Assembly: GCF_900169565.1 (NCBI RefSeq)
Contig: NZ_LT828648.1
Span: forward strand, 3,322,501 to 3,386,500
Reading direction: 5' to 3'
DNA length: 64,000 nucleotides
Source of the DNA: Nitrospira japonica
GTDB lineage: Bacteria > Nitrospirota > Nitrospiria > Nitrospirales > Nitrospiraceae
Below the pieces are notes generated by a model that was not told the origin of the DNA, did no database searches, and worked only from the letters and a program-made list of their open reading frames with translations. Positions 12,621-27,974 of this stretch are shown here, piece by piece. Numbering within the stretch: position 1 is the stretch's first letter; each line of letters begins with the position of its first letter. Both the position numbers and the translations under genes were made by a program.

Positions 12621-12820
12621 GATTTCAGCCTCACCGCAATAGTCGACTCGTCAGCCGCAAAGGGTCTGTACCATACCGCAATCGTCCCGATCGTGCCACT
12701 CCCATACCCTTGGGCTTGCGTCGGTCCTTGCCTGCCTCGAACCCAATCCTAAGGCTGACTTGCCCCCTCATTGTATGGTACTGTCCGGTTTCATGTAAGG
12801 GACAAGGAAGCACTATCATC

Positions 12821-13705
12821 ATGATCCGCGCAGCGATTCTCGGCGCAGGTGGGATTGCGCTCCTACTGCTGGCCGTAGTGTGTATCCCTCGCCATTTTCC
12901 ACAGAATCCCGCGCCGCCGATGATTCCCGCCAGTTTTCACGCGAGAATCGAAAATGGGACGCTGACGCTCCGCGGCACACTTCCCACTACGTCCAGCTTG
13001 GGAAGAATCCTCCAGGGTGCGCATGCCCGATACGACGCCGCTCATGTTCAGATCGTTGATCAATTGACCGTGGACAGCAAGGTGTCGTCCGCGCGTTGGA
13101 TCGATCCCTTACCCTCGGTGCTTCCCGTTCTCCAGCAGATGAACGGACGCGGCTCCATGATCATCGATGGTCGATCTCTGGTCATGAGCGGAAAGGTAGC
13201 GAGCGAACAGGCGAAGGCCAGCGTCCTGCGGGCTATTGCCCCGATCACCGCAACAGGCCTCGAATTGGAGGATCACATTCTAGCGGCCGCGGCACCTTCC
13301 GCACCCCCGGGTCCCGCTCGGCCGCCGCGAGCTTCGCTTCAATCGCGTCTGAACGCCGTCCTCTCTCACAACCGGATTGAATTTGAATCCAACCAAGCGA
13401 GCCTGACCGCCACCGGACGGGCGACGTTGGATGTCCTCGTGCCCATCCTGCGTGACGCACCGCCGCAAGCCGAAATCGAGATCGCGGGACACACCGACGG
13501 GTACGGCGCACCTGACTATAATTTGACCCTCAGCCGCCGTCGCGCCGAGGCTGTCCGCGACTATTTTGTGAAGCATGGACTGACGCAACACTTCACGCCC
13601 GTCGGATACGGCTCGACCAAACCTCACTCCAATGAGCGCACACAAGCCGCGCTCAAGAAGAACAGACGAATTGAACTGCAGGTGAAAGGGAACGGTGACG
13701 CATGA
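12821..13705 (+). CDS. OmpA-family outer-membrane/periplasmic protein with BON-like N-domain
   Basis: 294 residues. An N-terminal hydrophobic segment (AILGAGGIALLLLAVVCI) acts as signal or anchor. Residues about 35-160 contain two BON-like halves (ARIENGTLTLRGTLP and GRSLVMSGKVASEQAKAS), like those of mycobacterial OmpATb. After a proline-rich linker (APSAPPGPARPP) comes an OmpA C-terminal peptidoglycan-binding domain with IEFESNQASLTATGRATLDV, EIAGHTDGYGAPDYNLTLSR and RAEAVRDYFVKHG. It would tie the envelope to the cell wall. The ATG at 12821 follows AAGGAAG; the open frame to 12710 lacks such a site. Its stop overlaps the next gene by four bases. Confidence 0.85.
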   Translation: MIRAAILGAGGIALLLLAVVCIPRHFPQNPAPPMIPASFHARIENGTLTLRGTLPTTSSLGRILQGAHARYDAAHVQIVDQLTVDSKVSSARWIDPLPSVLPVLQQMNGRGSMIIDGRSLVMSGKVASEQAKASVLRAIAPITATGLELEDHILAAAAPSAPPGPARPPRASLQSRLNAVLSHNRIEFESNQASLTATGRATLDVLVPILRDAPPQAEIEIAGHTDGYGAPDYNLTLSRRRAEAVRDYFVKHGLTQHFTPVGYGSTKPHSNERTQAALKKNRRIELQVKGNGDA

Positions 13706-15027
13706 TGACGCTCATCGGCCAGATCGCAGGATGCCTGATTATCGCGGCCGGAATCGGCGGCCTTGTCGGATGGTTCTTGCGTCAGCATTCCGTCCGTTCG
13801 CTCGATCAGCAGATCTACGATCTCATGACCGCCTTGCGGGTCAAGGAGCAAGCCGTGACCGCAGCCCAACTGGAACTCAAATCCAGGACCTCGACCATGC
13901 AAGGCTATGAGGGAAAACTCGCCGCAACCGAGGTCCTCTTGCAAACCGCCCAGGAGGAGGCCGCCGCACACAGCGAACGGATCAAACAGGTACAGGCCGA
14001 GTCATCCGCCGCGATTCAACGCGTCGCCTCCCTGGAATCCGACCTGGCCTCGTCTCTTCAGCGCTCCGTCGACAGTGAAAAGATGGTCCTCGCCTTCGAA
14101 CAGGAAGCGCGTCAGGCCAATGCGGCCCGCACTGCGGCGCAACAGGCCTTGAGTGTTAAGGATGAGGAATTGTCCGAATTGCAGAACCGAGTGGCCGAAC
14201 TGCAAGGTCTTTCGGCTGAGGCAGATCAGCTGCGGTCTCATGTGGCGGAGATCGAACCCGCTCAAGGCCGTCTCCATTGGCTGGAGGTACAGCTGAGCGA
14301 AAAAGAAAGCCACCTCCGAACGGCATCCCATGACGCCGAAGAACAACGCGCCGCCGCGGCCCAACGCGGGAGCGAACTGGACGTCTTGAAGAAACAGCTC
14401 GAAGAACAGTCTCAACTGCTGCGCGATTGGGAATCCAGACACGATAAGACTCTGCGGCAGCGTGCAACGGATGCGAAACTGATCGAGACACATCGTGAGA
14501 CGATCGAGGAGCTGCAGTCCACCCTGGCGGAACGCGAACGGAGCGCGGAGACACAAGCCGAGAAAATTGCGGCACTCCAGCGGCAATTCGACGAACTGAG
14601 TCTGCTCTATACCACCCTGACCGAATCCCAAACAAAAGGAAAGCAAGACGACGCCGATCGATCCGGCACACGCAAGCGTCAAGCCGAAATGCGTGCGCCC
14701 CGGAAGGTGAAAGGACCATCGGAATCCATTGGGCGGCAACCGCTTCCCGCTGAGAATGACCAACTCACGTTGGAAGTCTCCTCGGGAGTGCAAGCGACCG
14801 AATCACGGAAGGACGATCTGACGAGAATTCGGGGCATCGATCCTGCCCTTGAGCAAGCTCTGAATAAATTGGGTACTCACAGCTTTATCCAGATTGCACG
14901 ATGGACGAGCACTGATATGTCTCGTGTCGCCAAGCAACTCGCCACCCCATTGGATCAATCCAAGAGGCGCAATTGGATCGCCGACGCCAAAAAGCAACAT
15001 CGTGAGAAGTATGGCGAACATCTCTGA
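13702..15027 (+). CDS. Membrane-anchored coiled-coil protein with C-terminal helix-hairpin-helix-like domain
   Basis: 441 residues. One N-terminal transmembrane segment (IGQIAGCLIIAAGIGGLVGW) is followed by roughly 280 residues of glutamate/glutamine/alanine-rich heptads predicted to form a long coiled coil. A basic linker comes next, then a C-terminal domain beginning LTRIRGIDPALEQALNKLG and containing SFIQIARWTSTDMSRVAKQL. That last domain resembles the helix-hairpin-helix modules appended to various envelope coiled-coil proteins. The ATG overlaps the OmpA gene stop (ATGA), so the pair is made together; the coiled coil could span the periplasm or face the cytoplasm. No catalytic residues are visible. 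Confidence 0.75.
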   Translation: MMTLIGQIAGCLIIAAGIGGLVGWFLRQHSVRSLDQQIYDLMTALRVKEQAVTAAQLELKSRTSTMQGYEGKLAATEVLLQTAQEEAAAHSERIKQVQAESSAAIQRVASLESDLASSLQRSVDSEKMVLAFEQEARQANAARTAAQQALSVKDEELSELQNRVAELQGLSAEADQLRSHVAEIEPAQGRLHWLEVQLSEKESHLRTASHDAEEQRAAAAQRGSELDVLKKQLEEQSQLLRDWESRHDKTLRQRATDAKLIETHRETIEELQSTLAERERSAETQAEKIAALQRQFDELSLLYTTLTESQTKGKQDDADRSGTRKRQAEMRAPRKVKGPSESIGRQPLPAENDQLTLEVSSGVQATESRKDDLTRIRGIDPALEQALNKLGTHSFIQIARWTSTDMSRVAKQLATPLDQSKRRNWIADAKKQHREKYGEHL

Positions 15028-15106: not shown

Positions 15107-15115
15107 CTTACATCT

Positions 15116-15134
15116 GTAGGGGTAGACCGCCTAC
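15116..15134 (+). promoter_or_regulatory. GGGG-rich inverted repeat upstream of Ig lipoprotein gene 1
   Basis: GTAGG (15116-15120) and CCTAC (15130-15134) flank GGTAGACCG. The sequence TGTAGGGGTAGACC recurs, minus one T, at 22068-22080 upstream of Ig gene 5, and a related form lies upstream of genes 2 and 3. A 12-base perfect palindrome, CGTAATATTACG, follows at 15144-15155, just before the ATG at 15159. Likely a regulator-binding site or leader element. Confidence 0.45.
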
Positions 15135-15158
15135 GAACCTTCCCGTAATATTACGTCC

Positions 15159-17537
15159 ATGTCATCTAGCTTACCTTCACGAATGAGGCAGATCTCAATG
15201 TCAGCATTCCAAGCATTTTCCGATCTTCGAACGATCACGTTTCTTTTTCTCGCCCTCATCTTCAGCTTAAATGGTTGCAATGACGTGTCAGAGGCACCGG
15301 CTCCACCTCCGGGGCCTGCCGCATTAGAAATTGCCTCGGGTTCCCCACTTCCCAATGGCAGCACGGGGATCCGCTATAGCACGACCTTGGCCGCTTCAGG
15401 CGGAAATCCTGCTTATTCATGGAGCTTAGCTGCTGGCTCACCTGCATTGCCCAATGGTCTCAGTTTGAGTCCGACTGGTGTAATCAGCGGCACTCCGACG
15501 ACAATCCAAACCGTCACACCAAAATTCCAGGTGGTGGATTCTTCAGCGCCAACCCAGCAAATTGCGCAGAAATCTCTCACGATTTCGATCAATGCAGTGC
15601 CACAACCTACTATAAGTGCACCAGCCGTCCTCCCAAATGGCATCGTTGGACACGCGTATCCGCAGACACAATTGACGGCTTCAGGAGGAACTCCCCCCTA
15701 TACCGGATGGACAGTGAACCCCGCATTGCCGGGCGGACTTGTTTTTAATACCTCCACGGGAACGATCAGCGGCACCCCAACAGCAACGAACAATCAATCG
15801 CATACTTTTACCGTCACGGACTCTTTTTCTCCGACTCCTCAGGATGGGTCGAGACAATACACATTGACGATCAGTCCAGCTCCACTGCCTTTAACGATCA
15901 CCACGAACTCTCCGCTTTCGAATGGCACGGTGACCGTGGCATATGGCCCAGTGCAACTGGCAGCAACAGGCGGTACCCCACCGTTAACATGGAGTATCGC
16001 CAGTGGCTCTTTGCCTCCGGGTCTTCAATTGAATCAGAACACAGGCACGATTTCCGGCACCCCAACAACAGCTGGAACCTCTACTGCCACTATCCGGGTA
16101 CAGGATGCGGGATCACCGCAGCAATCAGCTCAGAAGCCATTCTCGATCACGGTAGGCCTTCCAGGTCCACCGATTATCACTACGACATCGCTTCCCAACG
16201 GGACGTTCAACAATACGTACAATCAAACATTGCAAGTTACGGGAGGAGTATCTCCTCGAACATGGGGCGTTACCTCAGGATCTCTGCCTCCTGGCCTCGG
16301 CCTGAATGCATCCACGGGTGTGATTTCTGGCACAGCAACGCAAACAGGCACTTTTAGTTTTACGGTGCAAGTCACTGACGTCATTCCCCAGTCTGATTCC
16401 CAATCCTTATCCATTACGATCACCGCTCCGGCCCCTCCGCAAATCACCACGTCGTCGCTCCCGAACGGCACAGTGACCCAAACGTATCCAAGTACGACCT
16501 TGCAAGCGTCCGGTGGTACTGCGCCTCTGGTATGGGACCAAGTGGTTCAACCAGCCCTTCCGAACGGATTATCGTGGAGTGCAGCAACGCATACCATTAC
16601 TGGCTCACCTCTGAATGGAAGCCAGGGCACGACCTCACATACGTTTTCCGTAAGAGATTCGACAAATCCATCTCAGACAGCGACCAGGACGTTGTCGATT
16701 ACAATCAATCTTCCCTCGCCGCCCAACATCACGACAACCTCGGCTTCACTCCTGCCAAATGGAGTGGTAACGAATGCGTACAGTCGTACCATCCAAGCCA
16801 GCGGCGGAACTGGATCATTGAAATGGAGCATACAATCAGGTTCGCTCCCCACCGGCCTGAATCCGATTAACGAGTCGACGGGCGTGATTTCTGGCACTCC
16901 GTCCGCCCCAGGAACCTTCAATTTTACCGTGAGAGTGACGGACACTTTGAATCAGACTGATGACCAACCTCTTTCAATTGTGATTGGTCTCCCGGCCCCG
17001 CCCAACATCACAACGGCATCCCTGCCGAACGGCACCATGCTATCCGCTTATAATCAAACCGTGCAGGCAACCGGGGGAACCGGCGCCATCACGTGGAGCA
17101 TTAGCACCGGTTCATTACCCACCGGATTGAACCCCATTAATCCCGCGACCGGTCTGATTTCCGGCACGCCACTGTTGGCTGGCACTTCAAATTTCACGGT
17201 CCGAGCCACCGATACATTGAATCAATTTGATGACCAACCCCTTTCGATCACCATTGATCTTCCTGCGCCGCCCAATATCACCACCACTTCGCTCCAGAAT
17301 GGGATAGCCGGTCAGATATACAGTCAGCAGGTGCAAGCTCACGGAGGGATCGGAAATTTGACCTGGAGCATCAGCGCGGGAGCTCTACCGCCAGGTCTCG
17401 ATATTGACCAAACGACGGGGGTCATCTCCGGTACACCGACCGACCCGGGAGTTGGACCCTTTAGCTTCACAGTACAAGTCACCGACACGGTTCCACAATC
17501 CGATACCCAGGCCCTGTCTATCACAATTAACCCCTGA
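15159..17537 (+). CDS. Ig-repeat surface lipoprotein, paralog 1 (eight repeats)
   Basis: 792 residues. A signal peptide (TITFLFLALIFSLNG) ends in a lipobox cysteine followed by NDVSEAPAPPPGPAAL, so the mature protein is lipid-anchored; Asn at +2 does not signal inner-membrane retention. The rest is about eight repeats of roughly 80-95 residues. Each has the putative-Ig (He_PIG-like) pattern LPNG...Y...L.ASGG...W.....LP.GL....TG.ISGTP....G...F.V...D. It has no enzymatic motif, and adhesive or structural surface function is likely. The start may be 15159 or, with a better ribosome site (GAGGCAG), the ATG at 15198. It has its own downstream terminator and is the largest of five tandem paralogs. 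Confidence 0.82.
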   Translation: MSSSLPSRMRQISMSAFQAFSDLRTITFLFLALIFSLNGCNDVSEAPAPPPGPAALEIASGSPLPNGSTGIRYSTTLAASGGNPAYSWSLAAGSPALPNGLSLSPTGVISGTPTTIQTVTPKFQVVDSSAPTQQIAQKSLTISINAVPQPTISAPAVLPNGIVGHAYPQTQLTASGGTPPYTGWTVNPALPGGLVFNTSTGTISGTPTATNNQSHTFTVTDSFSPTPQDGSRQYTLTISPAPLPLTITTNSPLSNGTVTVAYGPVQLAATGGTPPLTWSIASGSLPPGLQLNQNTGTISGTPTTAGTSTATIRVQDAGSPQQSAQKPFSITVGLPGPPIITTTSLPNGTFNNTYNQTLQVTGGVSPRTWGVTSGSLPPGLGLNASTGVISGTATQTGTFSFTVQVTDVIPQSDSQSLSITITAPAPPQITTSSLPNGTVTQTYPSTTLQASGGTAPLVWDQVVQPALPNGLSWSAATHTITGSPLNGSQGTTSHTFSVRDSTNPSQTATRTLSITINLPSPPNITTTSASLLPNGVVTNAYSRTIQASGGTGSLKWSIQSGSLPTGLNPINESTGVISGTPSAPGTFNFTVRVTDTLNQTDDQPLSIVIGLPAPPNITTASLPNGTMLSAYNQTVQATGGTGAITWSISTGSLPTGLNPINPATGLISGTPLLAGTSNFTVRATDTLNQFDDQPLSITIDLPAPPNITTTSLQNGIAGQIYSQQVQAHGGIGNLTWSISAGALPPGLDIDQTTGVISGTPTDPGVGPFSFTVQVTDTVPQSDTQALSITINP

Positions 17538-17584
17538 CCAATCTCCGTTCTACAGAAGTCACCTAATTCCTAGAACTTGGGAAA

Positions 17585-17617
17585 GGGCGAAGACATCACT
17601 TCGCGCCCGTCTTTTTT
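17585..17617 (+). terminator. Rho-independent terminator after Ig lipoprotein gene 1
   Basis: GGGCGAAG (17585-17592) pairs with CTT(CG)CGCCC (17599-17608, two-base bulge) around a six-base loop. It is followed by GTC and a run of six T (17612-17617). It lies 48 bases after the stop codon and separates the first paralog from the second. Confidence 0.8.
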
Positions 17618-17643
17618 ACGTCGGATATCGTGCGTCAACGACG

Positions 17644-17683
17644 ACCTAGGGGTTTCTCTAGGTGCCTTAGGCATTCCCCTAGG
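17644..17683 (+). promoter_or_regulatory. Nested inverted repeats upstream of Ig lipoprotein gene 2
   Basis: ACCTAG (17644-17649) and CTAGGT (17658-17663) flank GGGTTTCT. The same left arm, CCTAGGGG (17645-17652), also pairs with CCCCTAGG (17676-17683), enclosing TGCCT-T-AGGCA (17663-17673). The core CCTAGGGGTTTCTCTAGGT recurs with three changes at 19871-19888 upstream of gene 3. It lies after the terminator and before the GTG start, so it is either an operator or a folded mRNA leader. Confidence 0.5.
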
Positions 17684-17731
17684 GTACCGTCACGTCCATC
17701 CTGTACGTCCTCATCCACTGGAGTTGGGTTT

Positions 17732-19810
17732 GTGGGGCAACGAACCCGCCATATATTCCATCATCGAACTGATTCACCCCTCAGTACGTTGTTCTCGCTA
17801 GTTTTCTTTCTCTGCGTACTGACCTCGTGCAACGACGTATCCACAGCACCTGCTCCTCCGCCGGAGCCTGGCGCGCTCGCGATTGCATCGGACTCTCCGC
17901 TTCCCAGCGGCAGCCTCGGCGTCACCTACAGCACGACTTTGGCCGCTTCAGGTGGAAATCCCGGGTATGCATGGAGCCTCGCGGGGGGGTCACCATCACT
18001 ACCCAGCGGGCTTGCCTTGAGTTCAACCGGAGTGATCAGCGGTAGGCCGACAACCATCCAGACGGTGACTCCCAAATTCAGAGTGGTGGACAGCACGACT
18101 CCAGCGGCCCAGGCAGCGGAAAAAGCCCTGAGTATTTCGATCAATGCGGTACCGCAGCCGACAGTGTCCTCCCCGGCTACGCTAGCCAACGGTATCGTGA
18201 ATCAGCCATATCCCCTGACGACCTTGACCGCCACCGGCGGCACACCGCCCTATACCAAATGGTCGGTCAGTCCCGGATTGCCGAACGGCTTCGGCTTCAA
18301 TGCTACCACAGGGACGATCAGCGGCACCCCGACAACCGCAAGCAACACGACGCATACGTTCACCGTCACCGACTCATTTTCGCCGACGCCTCAAGACGGA
18401 TCACGACAATACACACTGATCATTACTCCGGCCCCGTTGCCCTTGACGATCACCACGACGTCCCTACGATCCGGAACACAACTCCAGACGTACAGCGATA
18501 ATGTGGTGGCGGCGGGAGGTACCGCACCCTTGGCGTGGACTGTCGTGAGCGGGGCACTGCCCCCCGGGCTGCAACTGAACCAGAGCAACGGAGCGATTTC
18601 AGGCACACCGACGACTTTTGGAACGTTCACACCGACATTCCGAGTGCAAGACAGCGGCACTCCACAGCAATCGGCGCAAAAACAACTCAGCATAACCGTC
18701 AACCAACCGGCTCCGCTCAGTATCACGACCGGATCCCTCAGCAACGGCGTGCTGGGTCAACCCTATGATCAGACCCTTCAGGCCACGGGCGGTTCCGGAA
18801 CCAGAACGTGGAGCTTTCAAGGCGGTAACATTCCCAATTTGAGCATCAGTTCCTCGACGGGCAGGATCACGGGAACTCCGACGCCGACGGGTAACTTTAC
18901 ATTTACGGTCCAGGTCGTCGATGCGCTGTTTATCGCGACAAAACAATTCACGATAGCCGTAACCCCGCCGCCGCCCCCAAGTATCATCGCTCCCACGGCC
19001 CTTTCAATCGGCACCGTCAATGTGCCCTATCCCAGTACGACTCTTCAGAGCAGTGGAGGCGCGCCTCCCTTGTCTTTCCAGCCGGTAGGTATGCCGTTTG
19101 GCCTATCATTCGATCCAACCACGGCGACGATCAGCGGAACTCCGACAAGCCCCGGCGCAACGGACGTCACGTTTACAGTTCATGACTCCACCATCCCCTT
19201 CAACCAAACCGGGAGCAGGTCGTATACTCTACGAGTCAATTCGGCCCTCACGATCAATAGCGATGACTCCACGTCGCCGCTTCCCGTCGGCACGACCAGT
19301 CGCCCCTATACCACCTCTCTCACGGCATCGGGAGGAACAGGACCGTCGACGTACTCCTGGTCCATAACCGGTGGGGGTCCCACGCCGGCTCCGGGGTTAT
19401 CACTCGGCACAAACGGTACGATCAGCGGTCAACCGACGACGACTGGATCTTTTGCTCGAACATACCGTGTGCGGGACGGAAATGGAGTGACCGCCACAAA
19501 AACTCTCACGGTAAAGATCAGCACTGCACTGACGATCGAATCCGATGACGTGACCAAGCCTCTCGCCGTCGCCATCGAGACCAATATCTATGCGACAACG
19601 TTGTCCGCCTCTGGCGGAGTGCCTCCATACAGATGGGCGGTGAGTCCCACGTTGCCGCCCGGGCTCTCGCTGGAGCCAATTGCCGGTGTCATTGCAGGCA
19701 TACCCGAACAGGGCACGGCCGTAACTCCACCCGCCAAATTCATCTTTACGGTGACGGATTCACTCGACCAATCGTCCCAAAAGACACTCACATTGATCAT
19801 CGTTCGTTAG
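17732..19810 (+). CDS. Ig-repeat surface lipoprotein, paralog 2 (seven repeats)
   Basis: About 692 residues from a GTG at 17732, which has GGAG about eight bases upstream; an earlier GTG at 17630 gives an arginine-rich leader with no ribosome site. The signal sequence LSTLFSLVFFLCVLTS precedes the lipobox Cys and the shared stem NDVSTAPAPPPEPGAL. Seven He_PIG-like repeats follow. The first two are close to those of paralog 1; both proteins contain HTFTVTDSFSPTPQDGSRQY followed by APLPLTIT. A later repeat contains FQPVGMPFGLSFDPTTATIS, which recurs in paralogs 3 and 4. The protein is predicted to sit on the outer membrane with a long rod of Ig domains. No enzyme motif is visible. Confidence 0.8.
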   Translation: MGQRTRHIFHHRTDSPLSTLFSLVFFLCVLTSCNDVSTAPAPPPEPGALAIASDSPLPSGSLGVTYSTTLAASGGNPGYAWSLAGGSPSLPSGLALSSTGVISGRPTTIQTVTPKFRVVDSTTPAAQAAEKALSISINAVPQPTVSSPATLANGIVNQPYPLTTLTATGGTPPYTKWSVSPGLPNGFGFNATTGTISGTPTTASNTTHTFTVTDSFSPTPQDGSRQYTLIITPAPLPLTITTTSLRSGTQLQTYSDNVVAAGGTAPLAWTVVSGALPPGLQLNQSNGAISGTPTTFGTFTPTFRVQDSGTPQQSAQKQLSITVNQPAPLSITTGSLSNGVLGQPYDQTLQATGGSGTRTWSFQGGNIPNLSISSSTGRITGTPTPTGNFTFTVQVVDALFIATKQFTIAVTPPPPPSIIAPTALSIGTVNVPYPSTTLQSSGGAPPLSFQPVGMPFGLSFDPTTATISGTPTSPGATDVTFTVHDSTIPFNQTGSRSYTLRVNSALTINSDDSTSPLPVGTTSRPYTTSLTASGGTGPSTYSWSITGGGPTPAPGLSLGTNGTISGQPTTTGSFARTYRVRDGNGVTATKTLTVKISTALTIESDDVTKPLAVAIETNIYATTLSASGGVPPYRWAVSPTLPPGLSLEPIAGVIAGIPEQGTAVTPPAKFIFTVTDSLDQSSQKTLTLIIVR

Positions 19811-19870
19811 ACCTCCGGCATCTGTGCTCCACATGCTGATCGGCATTGGCGTATCGTGTCGCAAGTGAGG

Positions 19871-19909
19871 CCCGGGGTTTCTCCAGGTATTCAAGGAAAG
19901 ACCACCGGG
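19871..19909 (+). promoter_or_regulatory. Related GGGG-rich element upstream of Ig lipoprotein gene 3
   Basis: CCCGGGGTTTCTCCAGGT (19871-19888) matches CCTAGGGGTTTCTCTAGGT of gene 2 at most positions. CCCGG (19871-19875) can pair with CCGGG (19905-19909). It is about 105-145 bases before the ATG at 20015. The changes keep the spacing of GGGGTTTCTC and AGGT, which suggests selection on the motif. Confidence 0.42.
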
Positions 19910-20014
19910 GTAACGCGATCTCTGGCCATTCCTATTTTACCGACTAACTTTCCAGCTTGATCTGGATCCCGTAATCAGACTATGAATATGAGTTTGATCT
20001 AAGAAGGAGTTTGT

Positions 20015-21250
20015 ATGACTGCGCTTATAGCCTCCGCACCGCGGCCCTCATTCCGACTACTCCAGCGGTCCCTCAGACTTGTTCTAGGAGTGCTGTCGCT
20101 GTCAGTCATGGCCGGCTGTAACGATGTATCGGAAGCCCCGGCTCCGGATCCGGGCCCCGGCGCCCTAACCATTGTTACCGCTTCGCTCCCGGACGCCACC
20201 GTCAGACAACCCTACTCCATCACAATAGGCGGCTCGGGCGGCATCACCCCCTATTCATGGGGCGTGACTCCTCCGTTGCCGGCCAATCTCTCGTTCAATG
20301 GAGCCAGCGGTGCGATCAGCGGCATGCCGGCCGCACAAGGTACAAGTTCACATACCTTTACGCTTCAAGACTCTTCGGTGCCTCCCCAAACGACCCAGAA
20401 GACCCTTTCATTGAAGATCAATCAGGCCCTGGTTCCACCGGCGATCACCACGCTGTCGTTGCCGGCCGGAACCGTGAACGCGCCCTATCCGCAGACGACA
20501 CTCAATGCGACCGGAGGAGTTCCTCCCTTGGTCTGGCAGCCGGTCGGCATGCCCTTCGGATTGACATTCGACGCGGCCAGCCACTCCATTAGTGGAGTGC
20601 CCACCAGCAGCGGTACAGCAAACGTCACCTTTACGGTGAACGATTCCGCAGTCCCTTTCAATCAAACCGCAAGCGGGACACTCTCCATCACCGTCAATGT
20701 GGCCTTGAAGATCGACACGACTTCGCTCCCGGAAGGTTCGGTCAATCAAGGTTACGGACCGGTTCAACTGAACGCCTCGGGGGGCGGACAACCCTATTCT
20801 TGGACCATCGTCGGAGGAGCGCCGCCGGCTCCGGGCCTCACCCTCAGCTCGGGCGGCGTAATCACCGGTCAACCGACGACCAAGGGAGCATTCACCAATA
20901 CCTATCGCGTGCAGGACAACAATGGAGCGGCCGTGACGCAGTCGCTGACCATTACTGTGGCCGAATTGATCATCGACACCACCGGACTGCCGACCGGGCG
21001 GGTTGGCGTGGCATATGGACCGGTGGCGCTGACTGCATCGGGCGGCACGCCACCTTATGTCTGGTCATCTTCAGTCGTCCCGGTCCTGCCATCTGGATTG
21101 CTGTTCGATCCCAATTCAGGAACAGTCAGTGGGGCTCCACTGGTTCCACAAATTAATGGAAGCCACACATTTTCCGTGCGCGATGCCGCCAATCGTACGG
21201 CGACGAAAGCGCTTGGACTAACCATCTTGGACTCGTTGACGTCGAGATAG
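20015..21250 (+). CDS. Ig-repeat surface lipoprotein, paralog 3 (four repeats)
   Basis: 411 residues with a strong ribosome site (AGAAGGAG) before the ATG. The signal sequence LVLGVLSLSVMAG leads to the lipobox Cys and the stem NDVSEAPAPDPGPGAL. Four He_PIG-like repeats end GAISGMP, HSISGVP, GVITGQP and GTVSGAP. The second repeat (VWQPVGMPFGLTFDAASHSI) is nearly the same as one in paralog 4, and both proteins end in SLTSR. The paralog 4 gene starts 30 bases downstream, so the two form one transcription unit. Lipid-anchored, extracytoplasmic and probably adhesive or structural; no catalytic residues recognised. Confidence 0.8.
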   Translation: MTALIASAPRPSFRLLQRSLRLVLGVLSLSVMAGCNDVSEAPAPDPGPGALTIVTASLPDATVRQPYSITIGGSGGITPYSWGVTPPLPANLSFNGASGAISGMPAAQGTSSHTFTLQDSSVPPQTTQKTLSLKINQALVPPAITTLSLPAGTVNAPYPQTTLNATGGVPPLVWQPVGMPFGLTFDAASHSISGVPTSSGTANVTFTVNDSAVPFNQTASGTLSITVNVALKIDTTSLPEGSVNQGYGPVQLNASGGGQPYSWTIVGGAPPAPGLTLSSGGVITGQPTTKGAFTNTYRVQDNNGAAVTQSLTITVAELIIDTTGLPTGRVGVAYGPVALTASGGTPPYVWSSSVVPVLPSGLLFDPNSGTVSGAPLVPQINGSHTFSVRDAANRTATKALGLTILDSLTSR

Positions 21251-21280
21251 GCAAAACAGAAAGGAGTCGTTCATTCCACT

Positions 21281-22012
21281 ATGAGATCTGTGCGAGCCAA
21301 CCACTTGAAATATTGGCCGGTTGGTGCGCATAACCTATCCGTGCACGATCGCGCATACAGGATATCCAGGTTGGGCATCGCGCTAGCGGCGACCGCTGCC
21401 TTCTGTAGTCTTCTCGGCTGTAACGACATGTCCAAGGCTCCACCGCCTGATCCGGTCCCCGGAGAACTTGCCATCGCGACCACATTTCTTCCCGATGGCG
21501 ACGTGGGGGAACCTTACGTGGCTGCAGTAGGAGGATCCGGAGGCATTACACCGTATAAGTGGTCGGTATCTCCGGCGCTTCCCCCGAGTCTCACGTTCGA
21601 CCAGACGAGCGGTTCAATCAGCGGAACGCCGACGACGGCTGCCACTACCACTCACACCTTTACGCTCCAAGATTCTTCCAATCCCGCCGACACCGTGCAG
21701 AAATCGCTCTCCCTTACCGTCGAACCTCCCCTGTTGGTCAACACCACGTCTCTTCCGGTCGGACGAGTGAACGTGCCGTATCCGGTTACCACATTAACCG
21801 CGGTGGGAGGCTTGCCTCCCCTAGTCTGGCAGCCGGTGGCCATGCCCTTCGGACTGACCTTCGATCCGGCTTCCCACAGCATTCTCGGAACGCCACTGAC
21901 GAGTGGGACAACGAGCGTGACTTTTACGGTCCGCGATTCAAGTTCGCCGTTCAACAAGACAGCTTCCGCTACGCTCGGCTTGACGATTGCCCCCTCATTG
22001 ACCAGCCGGTAG
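21281..22012 (+). CDS. Ig-repeat surface lipoprotein, paralog 4 (two repeats)
   Basis: 243 residues, the shortest of the five. The N-terminus carries an unusually long basic leader, then GIALAATAAFCSLLG, the lipobox Cys and the stem NDMSKAPPPDPVPGEL (Met replaces Val). Only two He_PIG-like repeats remain: GGSGGITPYKWSVSPALPPS..., and one with VWQPVAMPFGLTFDPASHSI. The second is a near copy of repeat 2 of paralog 3, and the C-terminus also ends SLTSR. AAAGGAG lies about 13 bases before the ATG. It is probably co-transcribed with paralog 3, from which it may derive by duplication and loss of repeats. Confidence 0.78.
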   Translation: MRSVRANHLKYWPVGAHNLSVHDRAYRISRLGIALAATAAFCSLLGCNDMSKAPPPDPVPGELAIATTFLPDGDVGEPYVAAVGGSGGITPYKWSVSPALPPSLTFDQTSGSISGTPTTAATTTHTFTLQDSSNPADTVQKSLSLTVEPPLLVNTTSLPVGRVNVPYPVTTLTAVGGLPPLVWQPVAMPFGLTFDPASHSILGTPLTSGTTSVTFTVRDSSSPFNKTASATLGLTIAPSLTSR

Positions 22013-22067
22013 ACCGTCGCATATGACTGCTCGCCTCGGTTGAGTCGCCTCTCCCTTCCTATACCTT

Positions 22068-22082
22068 TGTAGGGGAGACCCC
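22068..22082 (+). promoter_or_regulatory. GGGG-rich hairpin upstream of Ig lipoprotein gene 5
   Basis: TGTAGGGGAGACC (22068-22080) is a near copy of the element before gene 1. Here GGGG (22072-22075) and CCCC (22079-22082) can pair around AGA. It lies 83 bases before the ATG at 22165. A further GGGGTCCTAACCCC sequence occurs at about 22124-22137. Confidence 0.4.
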
Positions 22083-22164
22083 ATCCCGATCCATCCCGTA
22101 AGATGCACTCCTCAGAAAGGCATGGGGTCCTAACCCCGCCACTCCAGCATTGCGCTGAGAGACG

Positions 22165-23418
22165 ATGGTTTTTTACTTGCTGGGTATCACCGTGCCATTG
22201 ACCGATCGGCCGCACAAGATTCACATTACGCCCCCCGCGCGAACTGCAAGGGGCTTATGGGCGCCCTTCCTGTCCGTGGTCTGCCTGTCAGGACTGATCG
22301 GCTGCAATGACGTCTCCAAAGCTCCTGACCCGGCCCCCGGTCCCGGCGCATTGGCCATCGTGTCGCTTTCTCTGCCCGACGGCGTCGTCAATCAACCCTA
22401 TGCGACCACTGTGGGTGGATCCGGCGGAATCACTCCCTATCAATGGTCGGTAAGTCCCCTCCTCCCCCGCAGTCTGACCCTCGATCCTTCGACAGGAGCA
22501 ATCAGCGGCACACCTGAGATCGTCGGGACAACGAGCCATACCTTCGCCCTGCACGACGCGTCCAATCCGGCACAGTCGACGCAAGTCACTCTCTCTTTGA
22601 CCATCAACGCAGCGCCGGCAGTACTGGCCATTACCACCACGTCACTCCCGAGCGGTACAGTCGGCCAACAGTACAGCAGGACGATCCAGGCCACGGGTGG
22701 AACCGCCCCGCTGTCCTGGAGTATTGTGGCGGGCGCTCTGCCTCAAAATGTGGCGTTCAATTCCCAGACAGGACTTGTGTCCGGCACGCCGACCGCCGTC
22801 GGTACATCCAACTTCACGGTGCGCGTCGTGGATACGACCGGACAAGCCGACACGCAATCCCTGTCGATCCTGATCAACCCATCGGCACCGCCCAACATCA
22901 CCACGGCTTCGGCCCTACCGGGAGGCACGGTCGGCTTGCCTTACAGTCAAACCCTGGCCGCTTCCGGTGGAACCGGCACCCTGGTCTGGAGCCGGACGGT
23001 CGGATCACTCCCGGCGAATTTGGCACTCAATCCCGCCGGGATCATCTCAGGTACTCCGACCAATACCGGCACCTCCACCTTCACGGTGAGGGTAACTGAC
23101 GCCCTATCACAGTCCGATTCCCAACAGTTCTCACTGACCGTGAGTGCCGCGCTGACAATAACCACCACTTCACTTGATAATGGCCGCGTCCGACGATCCT
23201 ATGATGAGACATTGCGGAGTTCGGGAGGAACGGCTCCGTTTACCTGGACCGTGTCGCCGCCGCTTCCGGCCGGGCTTGTTCTGAACGCGGCCACCGGAAA
23301 CATCTCTGGAACCCCTTCTTCCACCAGCAATGTGGTCTACGATTTCACCGTCCGGGACTCCACGACACCGACGAATCAGACCTTTACCAAATCCATCCGC
23401 CTCAGAGTCACCAACTAA
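22165..23418 (+). CDS. Ig-repeat surface lipoprotein, paralog 5 (four repeats)
   Basis: 417 residues. The leader FLSVVCLSGLIG precedes the lipobox Cys and the stem NDVSKAPDPAPGPGAL. Four He_PIG-like repeats follow, with the tags GAISGTPEIVG, GLVSGTPTAVG, GIISGTPTNTG and GNISGTPSSTS. Repeat 1 resembles repeat 1 of paralogs 3 and 4 (VGGSGGITPYQWSVSPLLPR). Repeats 2-3 resemble the repeats of paralog 1 with FTVRV.D......SQ. The N-terminal start at 22165 gives a long leader before the hydrophobic core, so a later start cannot be excluded. It is predicted to be an outer-membrane lipoprotein facing outward. It ends the tandem array; dnaE follows 67 bases later. Confidence 0.78.
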   Translation: MVFYLLGITVPLTDRPHKIHITPPARTARGLWAPFLSVVCLSGLIGCNDVSKAPDPAPGPGALAIVSLSLPDGVVNQPYATTVGGSGGITPYQWSVSPLLPRSLTLDPSTGAISGTPEIVGTTSHTFALHDASNPAQSTQVTLSLTINAAPAVLAITTTSLPSGTVGQQYSRTIQATGGTAPLSWSIVAGALPQNVAFNSQTGLVSGTPTAVGTSNFTVRVVDTTGQADTQSLSILINPSAPPNITTASALPGGTVGLPYSQTLAASGGTGTLVWSRTVGSLPANLALNPAGIISGTPTNTGTSTFTVRVTDALSQSDSQQFSLTVSAALTITTTSLDNGRVRRSYDETLRSSGGTAPFTWTVSPPLPAGLVLNAATGNISGTPSSTSNVVYDFTVRDSTTPTNQTFTKSIRLRVTN

Positions 23419-23485: not shown

Positions 23486-26400
23486 ATGTCGTTCGTGCAC
23501 CTCCATCTCCATACACAATTCAGTCTTCTCGACGGGGCCAACCAAATCGGTCCTCTCGTGCAACAAATTAAATCGTTCGGCCAACCGGCCGTTGCCATGA
23601 CCGACCATGGCAATATGTTCGGAGCGATCGAATTTTATCGAAAAGCGAAAGAGGCTGGAGTCAAACCGATCATCGGATGCGAAGCCTACATGGCCCCGGG
23701 CAGCCGGCTCAACAAGGACGGAAGCCAACTGGCCCACAACGACTACTATCATCTCATTCTCTTGGCTCGGAACCTGACGGGCTATCAAAACCTGATCAAG
23801 CTTGTCAGTAAAGCATATCTTGAGGGGTTCTATTATAAGCCTCGGATGGACAAGGAGATTCTTAAGCAGCACCACGAGGGAATCATTGCCCTTTCAGGCT
23901 GTCTCAGCGGAGAGATTCCGTACCTGATCGGCCAGAAGAATATGGCTGAAGCCATGGCGGTGGCCGGTGAATTTCAAGAGATCTTCGGCCGTGATCACTT
24001 CTACTTGGAAGTGCAGGCGAACGGACTCGACCACCAGCGCATTGCCAATGCGGGCCTGATTGAGATTCACAAAAAACTGAATATCCCGCTGGCCGGCACC
24101 AACGACTGCCACTACCTCAAGAAAGAGGACTCCCGGCCGCACGATCTGATGCTCTGCCTTCAGACCGGCAAGACCATCAGTGATCCGAATCGTATGAAGT
24201 TCGACACGGACGAACTCTACGTGAAGTCCACCGAGGAGATCGCTCCCGCGTTTGCGGAATTTCCGGGAGCCGTCGCAAACACCTGCCGCATCGCCGACCA
24301 CTGCGAACTGGAATTAGCCCTCAACAAAACCTATCTCCCGCAGTATACCGCTCCCGACGGGTATACCCGCGAATCCTATGTCGAACACCTCGCGACGGAG
24401 GGGCTCAATATTCGGTTGAACGATCGGCCGAGCCCTATCGCCCGAGCGCTCTATGAACAACGGCTGCGGGAGGAGCTCACCGTCATCTGCTCGATGGGGT
24501 TTGCCGGTTATTTCCTCATCGTCTGGGACATCATCCGGTTTGCCAGATCCCGCGGCATTCCCGTCGGACCTGGCCGCGGCTCTGCGGCCGGAAGTTTGGT
24601 GGCCTATGCCCTGCGGATTACGGATCTCGACCCCTTGGTCTATAGCCTACTGTTCGAGCGATTCTTGAATCCCGAGCGCGTCTCGCTTCCTGATATCGAC
24701 ATGGACTTCTGTATGGACCGCCGCGGTGAAGTGATCAATTATGTCGTCGAGAAATACGGATCCGACCATGTGGCGCAAATCATCACGTTCGGCACACTCG
24801 GGGCCAAGGCTGCCATCCGGGACGTGGGCCGGGTACTGGAAATGCCCTATGCCGACGCGGACAAAGTGGCCAAACTGGTTCCCAACCAGCTCAATGTGAC
24901 CTTGCAGCAGGCCCTCGACACCGAACCGCGACTCCGCGAGTTGGTCGAAACTGATCCCAGAGTCAAGGAACTGATGTCGGTCGCCCAATCGCTCGAAGGC
25001 CTCGCGCGGCACGCGTCGACCCATGCGGCGGGAGTCGTAATTTCCGAAGGCCCATTGACCGACCATGTGCCGCTTTACAAGGGTGCCAACGACGAAATCG
25101 TCACCCAATATTCCATGGGAGACGTGGAAAAAATCGGCCTGGTCAAATTCGACTTCCTCGGCCTCAAGACATTGACCATGATCCGTCGGGCCGAAACTTT
25201 GATCAACGGGAGTCGTCCGGATCGTGCGCCGCTCGTGGTGGACCGACTGCCGTTCGACGATGCCGAGACCTTCGCGCTGCTCTCGTCGGGCAAGACCACC
25301 GGCATCTTCCAATTGGAAAGCTCCGGCATGCGGGATCTCTTGACGGGGTTCAAGCCTGACCGATTCGAGGACATCATCGCGATCATCGCGCTCTATCGAC
25401 CCGGCCCGATGGATCTGATTCCGGACTTCATCAAGCGCAAACAGGGCAAGGTGCCGATTACCTATGAAACGCCGGAACTCGAGCCGATCCTCAAGGACAC
25501 CTACGGCGTCATCGTCTATCAGGAACAGGTCATGGCGATCGCCAATAAGGTCGCCGGCTTTTCACTGGGACAAGCCGACATTCTTCGCCGGGCCATGGGC
25601 AAGAAGAAGCCCGAGGAAATGGAGAAACTTCGGGTCAAGTTTCTGGAGGGTGCCAAGCAGAACAGGATCTCGGAAAAGAAAGCCGAGAAGCTGTACGAGT
25701 TGATTCAGAAGTTTGCCGGATATGGCTTCAACAAATCGCATGCGGCCGCCTATGCCGTCGTCTGTTATCAAACGGGATATCTGAAGGCCCACTATCCGAC
25801 CGAATTCATGGCGGCACTCATGACCAGCGACATGGGCAATCAGGACAAGATCGTGGGGTATTTCACGGAATGCCGGGATCTCGACATCAAAGTCCTGGGT
25901 CCCGACGTCAACGAGAGCCAGAAGGACTTTGCGGTGGCCGACGGAGCCATCCGCTTCGGGCTCGCCGCCATCAAGAACGTGGGGGAAGGAGCCGTCGAAT
26001 CCGTTCTGGCAATCCGGGACGAGAGCGGCCCGTTCGCGTCGTTCTTTGACTTTTGTCGGCGGGTCGACCTGAGAAAAGTAAACAAGCGGATGCTGGAAGG
26101 GCTGATCAAGACCGGCGCGTTCGATTCGACCGGAGCGAAACGCGCGCAACTCGTCGCGGTGCTGGACCGGGCGGTCGAAGACGGCGCGGCGGCCCAGCAG
26201 GAGAGAGAACTGGGCCAAACGAACATATTCGGAGCGGAATTCCAACCCCAAGGCCAGCCGGCTCATTCAGCCAACCCCATATTGCCTTCGGTTCCCGAAT
26301 GGGATCAGACAACGAGGTTGAAGTACGAGCGGGAACTCACAGGCTTCTACATTACCGCACATCCGCTCGCCCGCTATGAGGCCACGATCGGCGCCCTCGC

Positions 26401-26941
26401 GACCACGACGACAACGGGACTCACGGAACTGTCGGACGGCAAAGAAGTCAAGCTCTGCGGCATCATCGCCACCGTCAAATCCATGCTGACCAAGAAAGGT
26501 GATCGCATGGCTTATCTGTCGTTGGAAGACCTGCAAGGAACGGTCGAGGTCATCGCATTCCCCGACCTCTTCAAATCAGCGGGCGACTTGATCGCGCCGG
26601 AACGTCTGGTCCGAATCACCGGCACCATCGACCGAGGCGACAAAGGCACGAAGATCCGCGGTAGTCATATTGAACCCCTGGCCGAGGTCCAGACTCAAAC
26701 GGTGAAGCGCGTACGCATCAGGCTGACCGACCGTCCGGATACCCAGGACCAACTGCCTCGATTGCTGGAGGTCTTCAAGCGCCACCCTGGAGGCGCCACC
26801 ATATCACTGACGTTCCGGACTGAGGAATCCCTAGAAGCCGATACAGGCCCCCTTCCCAACCTTACCGTCACCGCCAGCGAACACTTCGTGGCGGAGGTCG
26901 AAGAAGTGCTAGGCAAAGGGGCCCTATCTTTGGTATCGTAA
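23486..26941 (+). CDS. dnaE: DNA polymerase III alpha subunit
   Basis: 1151 residues, normal for DnaE1. The N-terminal PHP domain begins FVHLHLHTQFSLLDGANQIG and has VAMTDHGNMFGAIEFYRKAK. The polymerase palm carries GPGRGSAAGSLVAYALRIT and the catalytic PDIDMDFCMDRRGEVI; other marks are HASTHAAGVVIS, RPGPMDLIPDFIKRK and YGFNKSHAAAYAVV. A C-terminal OB-fold (LCGIIATVKSMLTKKGDRMA) and tail complete it. It is the replicative polymerase catalytic subunit. It lies downstream of the unrelated Ig lipoprotein array and 64 bases upstream of accA, with which it may be co-transcribed, as in several bacteria. Confidence 0.97.
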   Translation: MSFVHLHLHTQFSLLDGANQIGPLVQQIKSFGQPAVAMTDHGNMFGAIEFYRKAKEAGVKPIIGCEAYMAPGSRLNKDGSQLAHNDYYHLILLARNLTGYQNLIKLVSKAYLEGFYYKPRMDKEILKQHHEGIIALSGCLSGEIPYLIGQKNMAEAMAVAGEFQEIFGRDHFYLEVQANGLDHQRIANAGLIEIHKKLNIPLAGTNDCHYLKKEDSRPHDLMLCLQTGKTISDPNRMKFDTDELYVKSTEEIAPAFAEFPGAVANTCRIADHCELELALNKTYLPQYTAPDGYTRESYVEHLATEGLNIRLNDRPSPIARALYEQRLREELTVICSMGFAGYFLIVWDIIRFARSRGIPVGPGRGSAAGSLVAYALRITDLDPLVYSLLFERFLNPERVSLPDIDMDFCMDRRGEVINYVVEKYGSDHVAQIITFGTLGAKAAIRDVGRVLEMPYADADKVAKLVPNQLNVTLQQALDTEPRLRELVETDPRVKELMSVAQSLEGLARHASTHAAGVVISEGPLTDHVPLYKGANDEIVTQYSMGDVEKIGLVKFDFLGLKTLTMIRRAETLINGSRPDRAPLVVDRLPFDDAETFALLSSGKTTGIFQLESSGMRDLLTGFKPDRFEDIIAIIALYRPGPMDLIPDFIKRKQGKVPITYETPELEPILKDTYGVIVYQEQVMAIANKVAGFSLGQADILRRAMGKKKPEEMEKLRVKFLEGAKQNRISEKKAEKLYELIQKFAGYGFNKSHAAAYAVVCYQTGYLKAHYPTEFMAALMTSDMGNQDKIVGYFTECRDLDIKVLGPDVNESQKDFAVADGAIRFGLAAIKNVGEGAVESVLAIRDESGPFASFFDFCRRVDLRKVNKRMLEGLIKTGAFDSTGAKRAQLVAVLDRAVEDGAAAQQERELGQTNIFGAEFQPQGQPAHSANPILPSVPEWDQTTRLKYERELTGFYITAHPLARYEATIGALATTTTTGLTELSDGKEVKLCGIIATVKSMLTKKGDRMAYLSLEDLQGTVEVIAFPDLFKSAGDLIAPERLVRITGTIDRGDKGTKIRGSHIEPLAEVQTQTVKRVRIRLTDRPDTQDQLPRLLEVFKRHPGGATISLTFRTEESLEADTGPLPNLTVTASEHFVAEVEEVLGKGALSLVS

Positions 26942-27005
26942 CATCCGACGAGCAGGCCCGGGGGGATCGCCCTCCTGGCGAATATCCACAACCTCTTATC
27001 CGTTT

Positions 27006-27974
27006 ATGCGCGACTATCTAGAATTTGAGAAGCCCCTCCGCGAAATTGAAGAAAAAATCGAAAAATTGGTGACGTCCGGCAGCACCAAAGCCAGTCACCA
27101 GGAAGAAATCCGCAAGTTGCGGATGAAATTGGCCCAGGTCGAGCATGACCTCTATAACGGCCTGACCCCCTGGCAACGCACGCAGTTAGCCCGACATCCG
27201 CAACGTCCCAGCACCCTCGACTATATCAATGAAATTTTTCGAGACTTTCTGGAGTTCCACGGAGACCGGTCGTTCGGCGACGATCGCGCCATCGTCGGAG
27301 GGTTCGCCCGGTTCAACGATCGCTCCGTGATGGTTATCGGCCACCAAAAAGGCAAGACCCTCAAGGAACGGATGCAGCGGAATTTCGGTATGCCGAATCC
27401 GGAGGGGTACAGGAAGGCCTTGCGCCTCATGAAGATGGCCGAGAAATTCAACCGCCCGATCGTCACCTTTATCGACACTCCCGGCGCCTACCCCGGAATC
27501 GGCGCGGAGGAACGAGGCCAAGCCGAGGCGATCGCCAGAAATCTCCTGGTCATGTCGAGACTGAGCGTCCCCATCGTTTCCATTGTCATCGGCGAAGGCG
27601 GCAGCGGAGGCGCACTGGCTTTGGGCGTGTCGGACCGGGTTCTCATGCTGGAGCATGGCGTCTATTCGGTGATTTCCCCCGAGGGCTGCGCGGCTATCCT
27701 CTGGGATGATCCGGCCAAAGTGCCGGATGCGGCCTTCGCATTGAAGATGACAGCCCAGGATCTTCAGGGTCTCGGGATCGTCGACGACATCATACCGGAG
27801 CCCATCGGCGGGGCCCACCGAGAGCCAAGAGCAGTCACGGACCGGGTCGCCAAAACTCTGACCAACTACCTGTTCCCGCTCACCGAGTGCTCGATTGCCC
27901 AACTGCTGGCTGAACGCGAGCAGAAGTACCGGCGCATCGGGGCGGTCAACGGGCTCGAAGCCAAACCTTCATAA
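27006..27974 (+). CDS. accA: Acetyl-CoA carboxylase carboxyltransferase alpha subunit
   Basis: 322 residues, the usual AccA length. It begins YLEFEKPLREIEEKIEKL and has the ARHPQRPSTLDYI segment, GDRSFGDDRAIVGGFARF, FIDTPGAYPGIGAEERGQAE and GEGGSGGALALGVSDRVLML, all diagnostic for the crotonase-fold CT alpha subunit. With AccD it transfers the carboxyl group from biotin to acetyl-CoA, the committed step of fatty-acid synthesis. No accD is visible in the window. It ends in a convergent region with the DUF1080 gene. Confidence 0.97.
   Translation: MRDYLEFEKPLREIEEKIEKLVTSGSTKASHQEEIRKLRMKLAQVEHDLYNGLTPWQRTQLARHPQRPSTLDYINEIFRDFLEFHGDRSFGDDRAIVGGFARFNDRSVMVIGHQKGKTLKERMQRNFGMPNPEGYRKALRLMKMAEKFNRPIVTFIDTPGAYPGIGAEERGQAEAIARNLLVMSRLSVPIVSIVIGEGGSGGALALGVSDRVLMLEHGVYSVISPEGCAAILWDDPAKVPDAAFALKMTAQDLQGLGIVDDIIPEPIGGAHREPRAVTDRVAKTLTNYLFPLTECSIAQLLAEREQKYRRIGAVNGLEAKPS

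Follow-up and report, generated by a model that had tools for sequence, protein, structure and literature searches.

The question raised by this locus is why five adjacent genes should carry the same N-terminal anchor in front of rods of different length, and what such a set of proteins might do. The locus lies in the window, i.e. the whole stretch of 64,000 nucleotides (nt) analysed here from the genome of Nitrospira japonica (G000; complete, one contig, 4,084,817 bases or 4.08 Mb). Nitrospira are major nitrite oxidisers of water treatment and soil, and occur in flocs and biofilms. The explanation that we favour, at a little better than even confidence, is that the genes encode outer-membrane rod lipoproteins, in which a conserved promoter-anchor module is combined with recombining rods that act as a coat, spacer or weak glue.

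Five tandem genes for predicted rod lipoproteins

The following genes were found at the locus.

15159..17537, + strand: gene 1, predicted lipoprotein; Cys codon 15276; 8 He_PIG repeats at 15345-17531
17630..19810, + strand: gene 2, predicted lipoprotein; Cys codon 17828; 7 He_PIG repeats
20015..21250, + strand: gene 3, predicted lipoprotein; Cys codon 20117; 4 He_PIG repeats at 20171-21226
21281..22012, + strand: gene 4, predicted lipoprotein; Cys codon 21419; 2 He_PIG repeats
22165..23418, + strand: gene 5, predicted lipoprotein; Cys codon 22303; 4 He_PIG repeats at 22360-23409

The start of gene 2 is either the GTG at 17630, which gives the longest open reading frame (ORF), or the GTG at 17732. 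All five proteins had the same layout, with a hydrophobic N-terminal segment, a lipobox-like site, a Cys, the stem N-D-[VM]-S-x-A-P and a Pro-rich linker followed by repeats alone, and a repeat profile built from the locus left just 2–7 residues after the last repeat. He_PIG (PF05345) was the sole Pfam family above cut-off, with all five proteins above the curated value (whole-protein expectation values, E, of 2e-83 to 1.8e-13), and both Pfam and the locus-built profile returned copy numbers of 8, 7, 4, 2 and 4. The original prediction of five tandem genes with signal peptide, lipobox Cys, stem, Pro linker and these repeat numbers is thus upheld by the ORFs, Pfam and the locus profile. The composition of the mature proteins is stalk-like, with 24–29 % Ser+Thr, 18–22 % Pro+Gly, less than 4 % Lys+Arg and a single Cys. 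The repeat fold was established by modelling, the mature gene 4 protein being predicted as two beta-sandwiches (mean predicted local distance difference test score 90.4, predicted template modelling score 0.68).

The lipobox and stem read LNGC-NDVSEAP, LTSC-NDVSTAP, MAGC-NDVSEAP, LLGC-NDMSKAP and LIGC-NDVSKAP in genes 1–5, with a mild departure from the strict lipobox at position -2 in genes 1 and 4. It was confirmed that the pattern at the locus exceeds chance; CND[VMI]S had seven matches in the 4.08-Mb genome, namely the five genes and two ORFs without a lipoprotein N-terminus. A simple rule predicted 33 lipoproteins in 0.8 Mb sampled from this genome, and none of them had Asn at +2 or Asp at +3; on this sample the stem was rejected as a general lipoprotein signal of the organism.

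Elsewhere in the window genome, He_PIG was found in two other places only. One is a second lipoprotein type, with a different stem, in which propeller-like repeats come after a single He_PIG domain (L071 6482-8230, G000 ~2028.7 kb), which also occurs in L073 and L080 in a neighbourhood conserved across the three genomes. Further He_PIG proteins of the Nitrospiraceae (L077, L079 and L081) have carboxypeptidase-regulatory-like N-terminal regions and lack the stem.

Different rods behind one promoter-anchor module

Three Pfam families of rod were found on the shared signal peptide and stem: He_PIG, Cadherin-like (PF12733; 5–8 copies, in L052, L056, L067, L070 and L075) and K319L-like PKD (PF22352; 4–7 copies, in L062 and L067); by inspection, L096 encodes another PKD-type rod. 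When six genes with different rods were aligned as DNA, the promoter, signal peptide and stem were highly identical, and identity was gone about 40–60 nt past the Cys codon. Between the relatives G132 and G055, purH and purD were 97 % and the 5' module 93 % identical, whereas the rods were 56 % identical (shuffled sequence, 51 %); the relatives' genomes are partly drafts in which an assembly error might just account for this rod difference, but the same pattern recurs in several genomes. The G132 rod had 76 % protein identity to a He_PIG rod of the more distant G072. Because G132 and G055 share the 5' module and flanks but have non-orthologous rods, a join inside the gene is needed; either incoming DNA could have replaced the rod, or a deletion could have run from one 5' module of a tandem array to the next. 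At the level of sequence, these comparisons establish the modules, the conservation of the first, the replacement of the rod and the promoter element described below.

The promoter element was found in front of two genes of the window.

15111..15151, + strand: gene 1 promoter, CATCTGTAGGGGTAGACC; dyad TAC-N4-GTA, GTAGGG from 15116, -35-like TAGACC at 15123-15128, -10 TAATAT at 15146-15151
22064..22104, + strand: gene 5 promoter, CCTTTGTAGGGGAGACC; GTAGGG from 22069, -10 TAAGAT at 22099-22104

Its consensus was TAC-N4-GTAGGG, then about AGAC, then a TATGAT-like box, and it was present at 25 of the 46 family genes read. The distance from the start of GTAGGG to the start of the -10-like box was exactly 30 nt in 20 of these 25 and 29 or 31 nt in four; the remaining gene has TATTAT at 30, although the scan picked 33. 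Across 23 genomes, the strict pattern had 16 matches, 15 of them upstream of family genes, compared to none for the reversed control and none in six genomes without the family. The sixteenth (G133 contig C7 ~183002, L130; CATCCGTAGGGTAGAC...TATGAT) is an orphan without a lipoprotein gene and may be what is left of a gene that was lost or has moved.

The dyad just upstream of a weak -35 has the look of an activator site, and the element offers a handle toward the regulator. The promoters were missed by a scan with the sigma-70 consensus, as expected because the -35 is weak. A wider regulon was ruled out, since the strict patterns of genes 1 and 5 each had a single match in the 4.08-Mb genome. 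Regulation by quorum sensing (LuxR) is likewise unlikely; luxI was present in 15 of the 23 genomes and the operator was not found near it in these 15, while G055, G124 and G135 have the operator but no luxI. The luxI homologue of the window genome (L194, G000 ~1532.7 kb; reported for N. japonica in PMC5767232) is preceded by a lux-box-like dyad, CACCTGGCGAGTCGGCCAGGTG, unlike the rod operator.

The original prediction held that a fixed anchor with variable rod length sets the reach of the fibres. One family with a fixed anchor and differing lengths was indeed found, but length does not appear to be the main variable, and the change of rod type between three Pfam families had not been foreseen. 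G001, a different species rather than a close strain, carries the complete set of five in unchanged order, and its repeat numbers are equal gene by gene (8, 7, 4, 2 and 4). Protein identity between G000 and G001 was 77–86 % and the ratio of nonsynonymous to synonymous substitution rates (dN/dS) was 0.09–0.12, compared to 0.04 for dnaE and 0.03 for accA, all ratios being approximate with dS near 1; the five genes appear to be under purifying selection. Within any one G000 gene the best identity between repeats was 71 % (protein), and no tandem DNA repeats were reported within the locus by Tandem Repeats Finder. Slippage is excluded because the repeats are too diverged, and since they also match position by position between the two species (except repeats 1–2 of genes 1 and 2), length would be a stable property of each gene at this scale. 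Rapid length variation is therefore not supported, given the equal repeat numbers, the diverged repeats and a dN/dS of about 0.1. The exception (window 17760-18424; L051 8805-11003) points to a recent gene conversion in G001, not in the window genome: in G001, genes 1 and 2 share 60 codons that are 98 % identical in DNA (dS 0.04).

The N-terminal part of gene 3 was searched against 147 Nitrospiraceae genomes, and a 44-residue stem profile against 236 Nitrospirales genomes. Strong family members were confined to three Nitrospiraceae genera, and a phylum sample gave weak matches only beyond these. Outside the rod family the stem gave weak matches (E 1.9e-6 to 9e-4), of which the ones read were unrelated, e.g. 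a membrane-fusion protein. Homologues without the lipobox Cys would have counted against the original prediction; throughout the three genera the homologues retain the Cys, the stem and the rod-only architecture. In most loci read, in all three genera, the cluster directly adjoins two genes which we take, from sequence and general knowledge, to be dnaE and accA; on its other side is a pair of OmpA-domain and coiled-coil genes in two genera or purH/purD-like genes in the third. Some family members lie away from this site (e.g. L053, L059 and L061). The flanks in the window are as follows.

12710..15027, + strand: upstream flank, OmpA-domain protein (12710-13705) and coiled-coil protein (13702-15027); synteny in two of three genera
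23486..27974, + strand: downstream flank, dnaE and accA; adjoining the cluster in three genera, in most loci read

Transposase- and toxin-type ORFs were found near the cluster in G040, G072 and G132. In relatives, REP-associated transposase-like and PIN-domain toxin-like genes lie within or beside the dnaE-side cluster (L055 9398-10483, L057 14347-15285 and L056 6851-7276), which suggests an insertion hot spot. In three genomes, all of one genus, a signal-peptide protein of 408–409 residues with no Pfam match is encoded next to a rod gene (L063 1921-3144, L067 4995-6221 and L068 4678-5904) and is a possible partner of the rod protein.

Origin and placement of the rods

In the explanation that we favour, the first module would consist of a promoter with a dyad operator, a signal peptide, a lipidated Cys, the stem C-x-D-V-S-x-A-P and a Pro linker, all conserved across genera. 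It would drive expression and direct the protein to a single place in the envelope, which is most likely the outside of the outer membrane. The second would be a stalk of low charge with much Ser, Thr, Pro and Gly, built from 2–9 stacked immunoglobulin-like (Ig-like) domains of one of the three families. Homologous recombination in the shared 5' module, by replacement or by tandem-array deletion, would join the anchor to a new rod beside dnaE, and in flocs and biofilm the rods may serve, over their whole length, as a coat, spacer or weak glue. A stronger version, which we regard as doubtful, is a dedicated rod-exchange system, in which the promoter-anchor module has its own sorting signal (C-x-D-V-S-x-A-P) and activator site and unrelated Ig-like rods are recombined at one site into an exchangeable nitrifier coat; if true, this could bear on e.g. 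which cells belong to a floc or how they evade phages and predators.

Slow differential loss from an old tandem array of rod types behind duplicated 5' ends, with no exchange mechanism, is a rather unlikely account that fits part of the evidence. In G072 a tandem array of one Cadherin-like and two He_PIG genes persists, the rods of G000 include some that resemble the G132 type and some that resemble the G055 type, and G001 has kept the repeat numbers and order seen in G000. The G132/G055 comparison above demands more than whole-gene loss, since the join falls within the gene. Deletion between tandem 5' modules would reconcile loss with exchange, and the G072 array could be a picture of the ancestor for such a deletion. 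The placement of the rods invites a different objection, namely that they are a structural part of the periplasm, which we consider unlikely. The OmpA-domain and coiled-coil neighbours in two genera would suit such a role, LolA is present, and the Asp at +3, invariant in the family, might act in sorting in Nitrospirota. Set against this, purH/purD-like genes replace that pair in the third genus, and one Ig-like domain is about 4 nm long, which would make rods of 8–9 domains longer than the usual periplasm. Rod replacement and stalk-like composition would also be unusual for a structural periplasmic part.

For the rods as an outer-membrane coat, signal peptide, lipobox and Cys in the five proteins and their relatives predict lipidation. 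Asp is absent at +2 and the genome has two LolA genes, as expected of Lol sorting to the outer membrane under a Proteobacterial rule that may not hold in Nitrospirota. Composition, lengths and rod replacement argue for exposure, and surface display is the probable outcome. Several points weigh against this explanation. Lipidation is read from sequence motifs; no surface-export machine was found, in a search for the Slam translocon (SlipAM, PF04575) that lacked a positive control and gave no match in the genome or in control genomes; genes 2, 3 and 4 have no promoter element; the family is patchily distributed inside the three genera; and no adhesive tip domain was found in Pfam and profile scans of the five proteins and their relatives. 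The last point also means that a classic adhesin fibre is not supported, there being no terminal binding domain. A strict fibrillar adhesin could still be constructed if the rod were the stalk and the last domain a cryptic ligand-binding tip, which we judge distinctly improbable: the repeats are of stalk type, the stem of the adhesin SraP is the closest fold and stalk domains may acquire binding functions (PMC9210967), but the last repeat conforms to the profile of the other repeats, and no more than 2–7 residues come after it.

Comparison with known systems

The Lig proteins of Leptospira are likewise surface lipoproteins with Ig-like repeats, and their paralogues share an N-terminal part and differ beyond it. 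They have one Ig-like family and a long shared repeat region, unlike the Nitrospira rods, which draw on three families and part immediately behind the stem. By profile, the best solved relatives of the rods were the stem modules of the staphylococcal serine-rich adhesin SraP (E 5e-13), which was also top in Foldseek; a VIA-align search with one gene 4 domain placed the N-terminal domains of two Bacteroides galactosidases first (Z 12.7, 86 residues, root mean square deviation 1.8). Cadherins and Ig cell-adhesion proteins also matched in structure, which was read as no more than a common fold. SraP (PDB 4m00, 4m03) has the same tandem beta-sandwich (cadherin-like) stalk, its stem being a calcium-rigidified spacer (PMC4047093). 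This Gram-positive adhesin carries a lectin at its tip and has junctions stiffened by calcium, whereas the Nitrospira rods have a predicted lipid anchor and no tip. The Asp-Asn pair among the SraP calcium ligands aligns with Ser-Gly in the rods, and a later Asp is kept; the SraP-type calcium site is therefore probably missing.

Periscope proteins share a tandem folded-domain stalk on a fixed anchor, but have near-identical repeats whose numbers differ between close strains (PMC8201768). In the Nitrospira rods, repeats are diverged, highly identical tandem DNA repeats are absent from the locus, numbers are stable between G000 and G001, and the whole rod changes instead. Fibrillar adhesins (PMC9210967, PMC8286594) have tandem stalk domains and a presumed surface anchor, and the Nitrospira proteins have such a stalk; they differ in the N-terminal lipid anchor, the rod-only architecture and the lack of a known adhesive domain. 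The lipoprotein export signal of Bacteroidota is also a short conserved motif directly after the lipidated Cys, comprising K-(D/E)2 or a polar residue plus at least two acidic residues, and its SDDFE and SDDDD forms open with a polar residue and Asp, like C-S-D-V-S of the rod family (PMC5080379). The rod-family stem has a single Asp at +3 followed by V-S-x-A-P and falls outside this definition.

A literature search on surface or Ig-like lipoproteins of Nitrospira found nothing relevant. Ig-like stalks, lipid anchors, stalk-type adhesins (PMC9210967) and variable-length stalks (PMC8201768) are known already; the papers searched contained no case of the present combination, in which rods of three unrelated families share a single promoter-anchor cassette and site in a Gram-negative nitrifier. 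With such different rods on one anchor, the destination of a protein would be separated from the content displayed, and the stem becomes a concrete candidate for a signal that sorts lipoproteins, or exports them to the surface, in bacteria other than Proteobacteria and Bacteroidota. In this way the locus resembles a mix-and-match surface-protein site in a major nitrifier.

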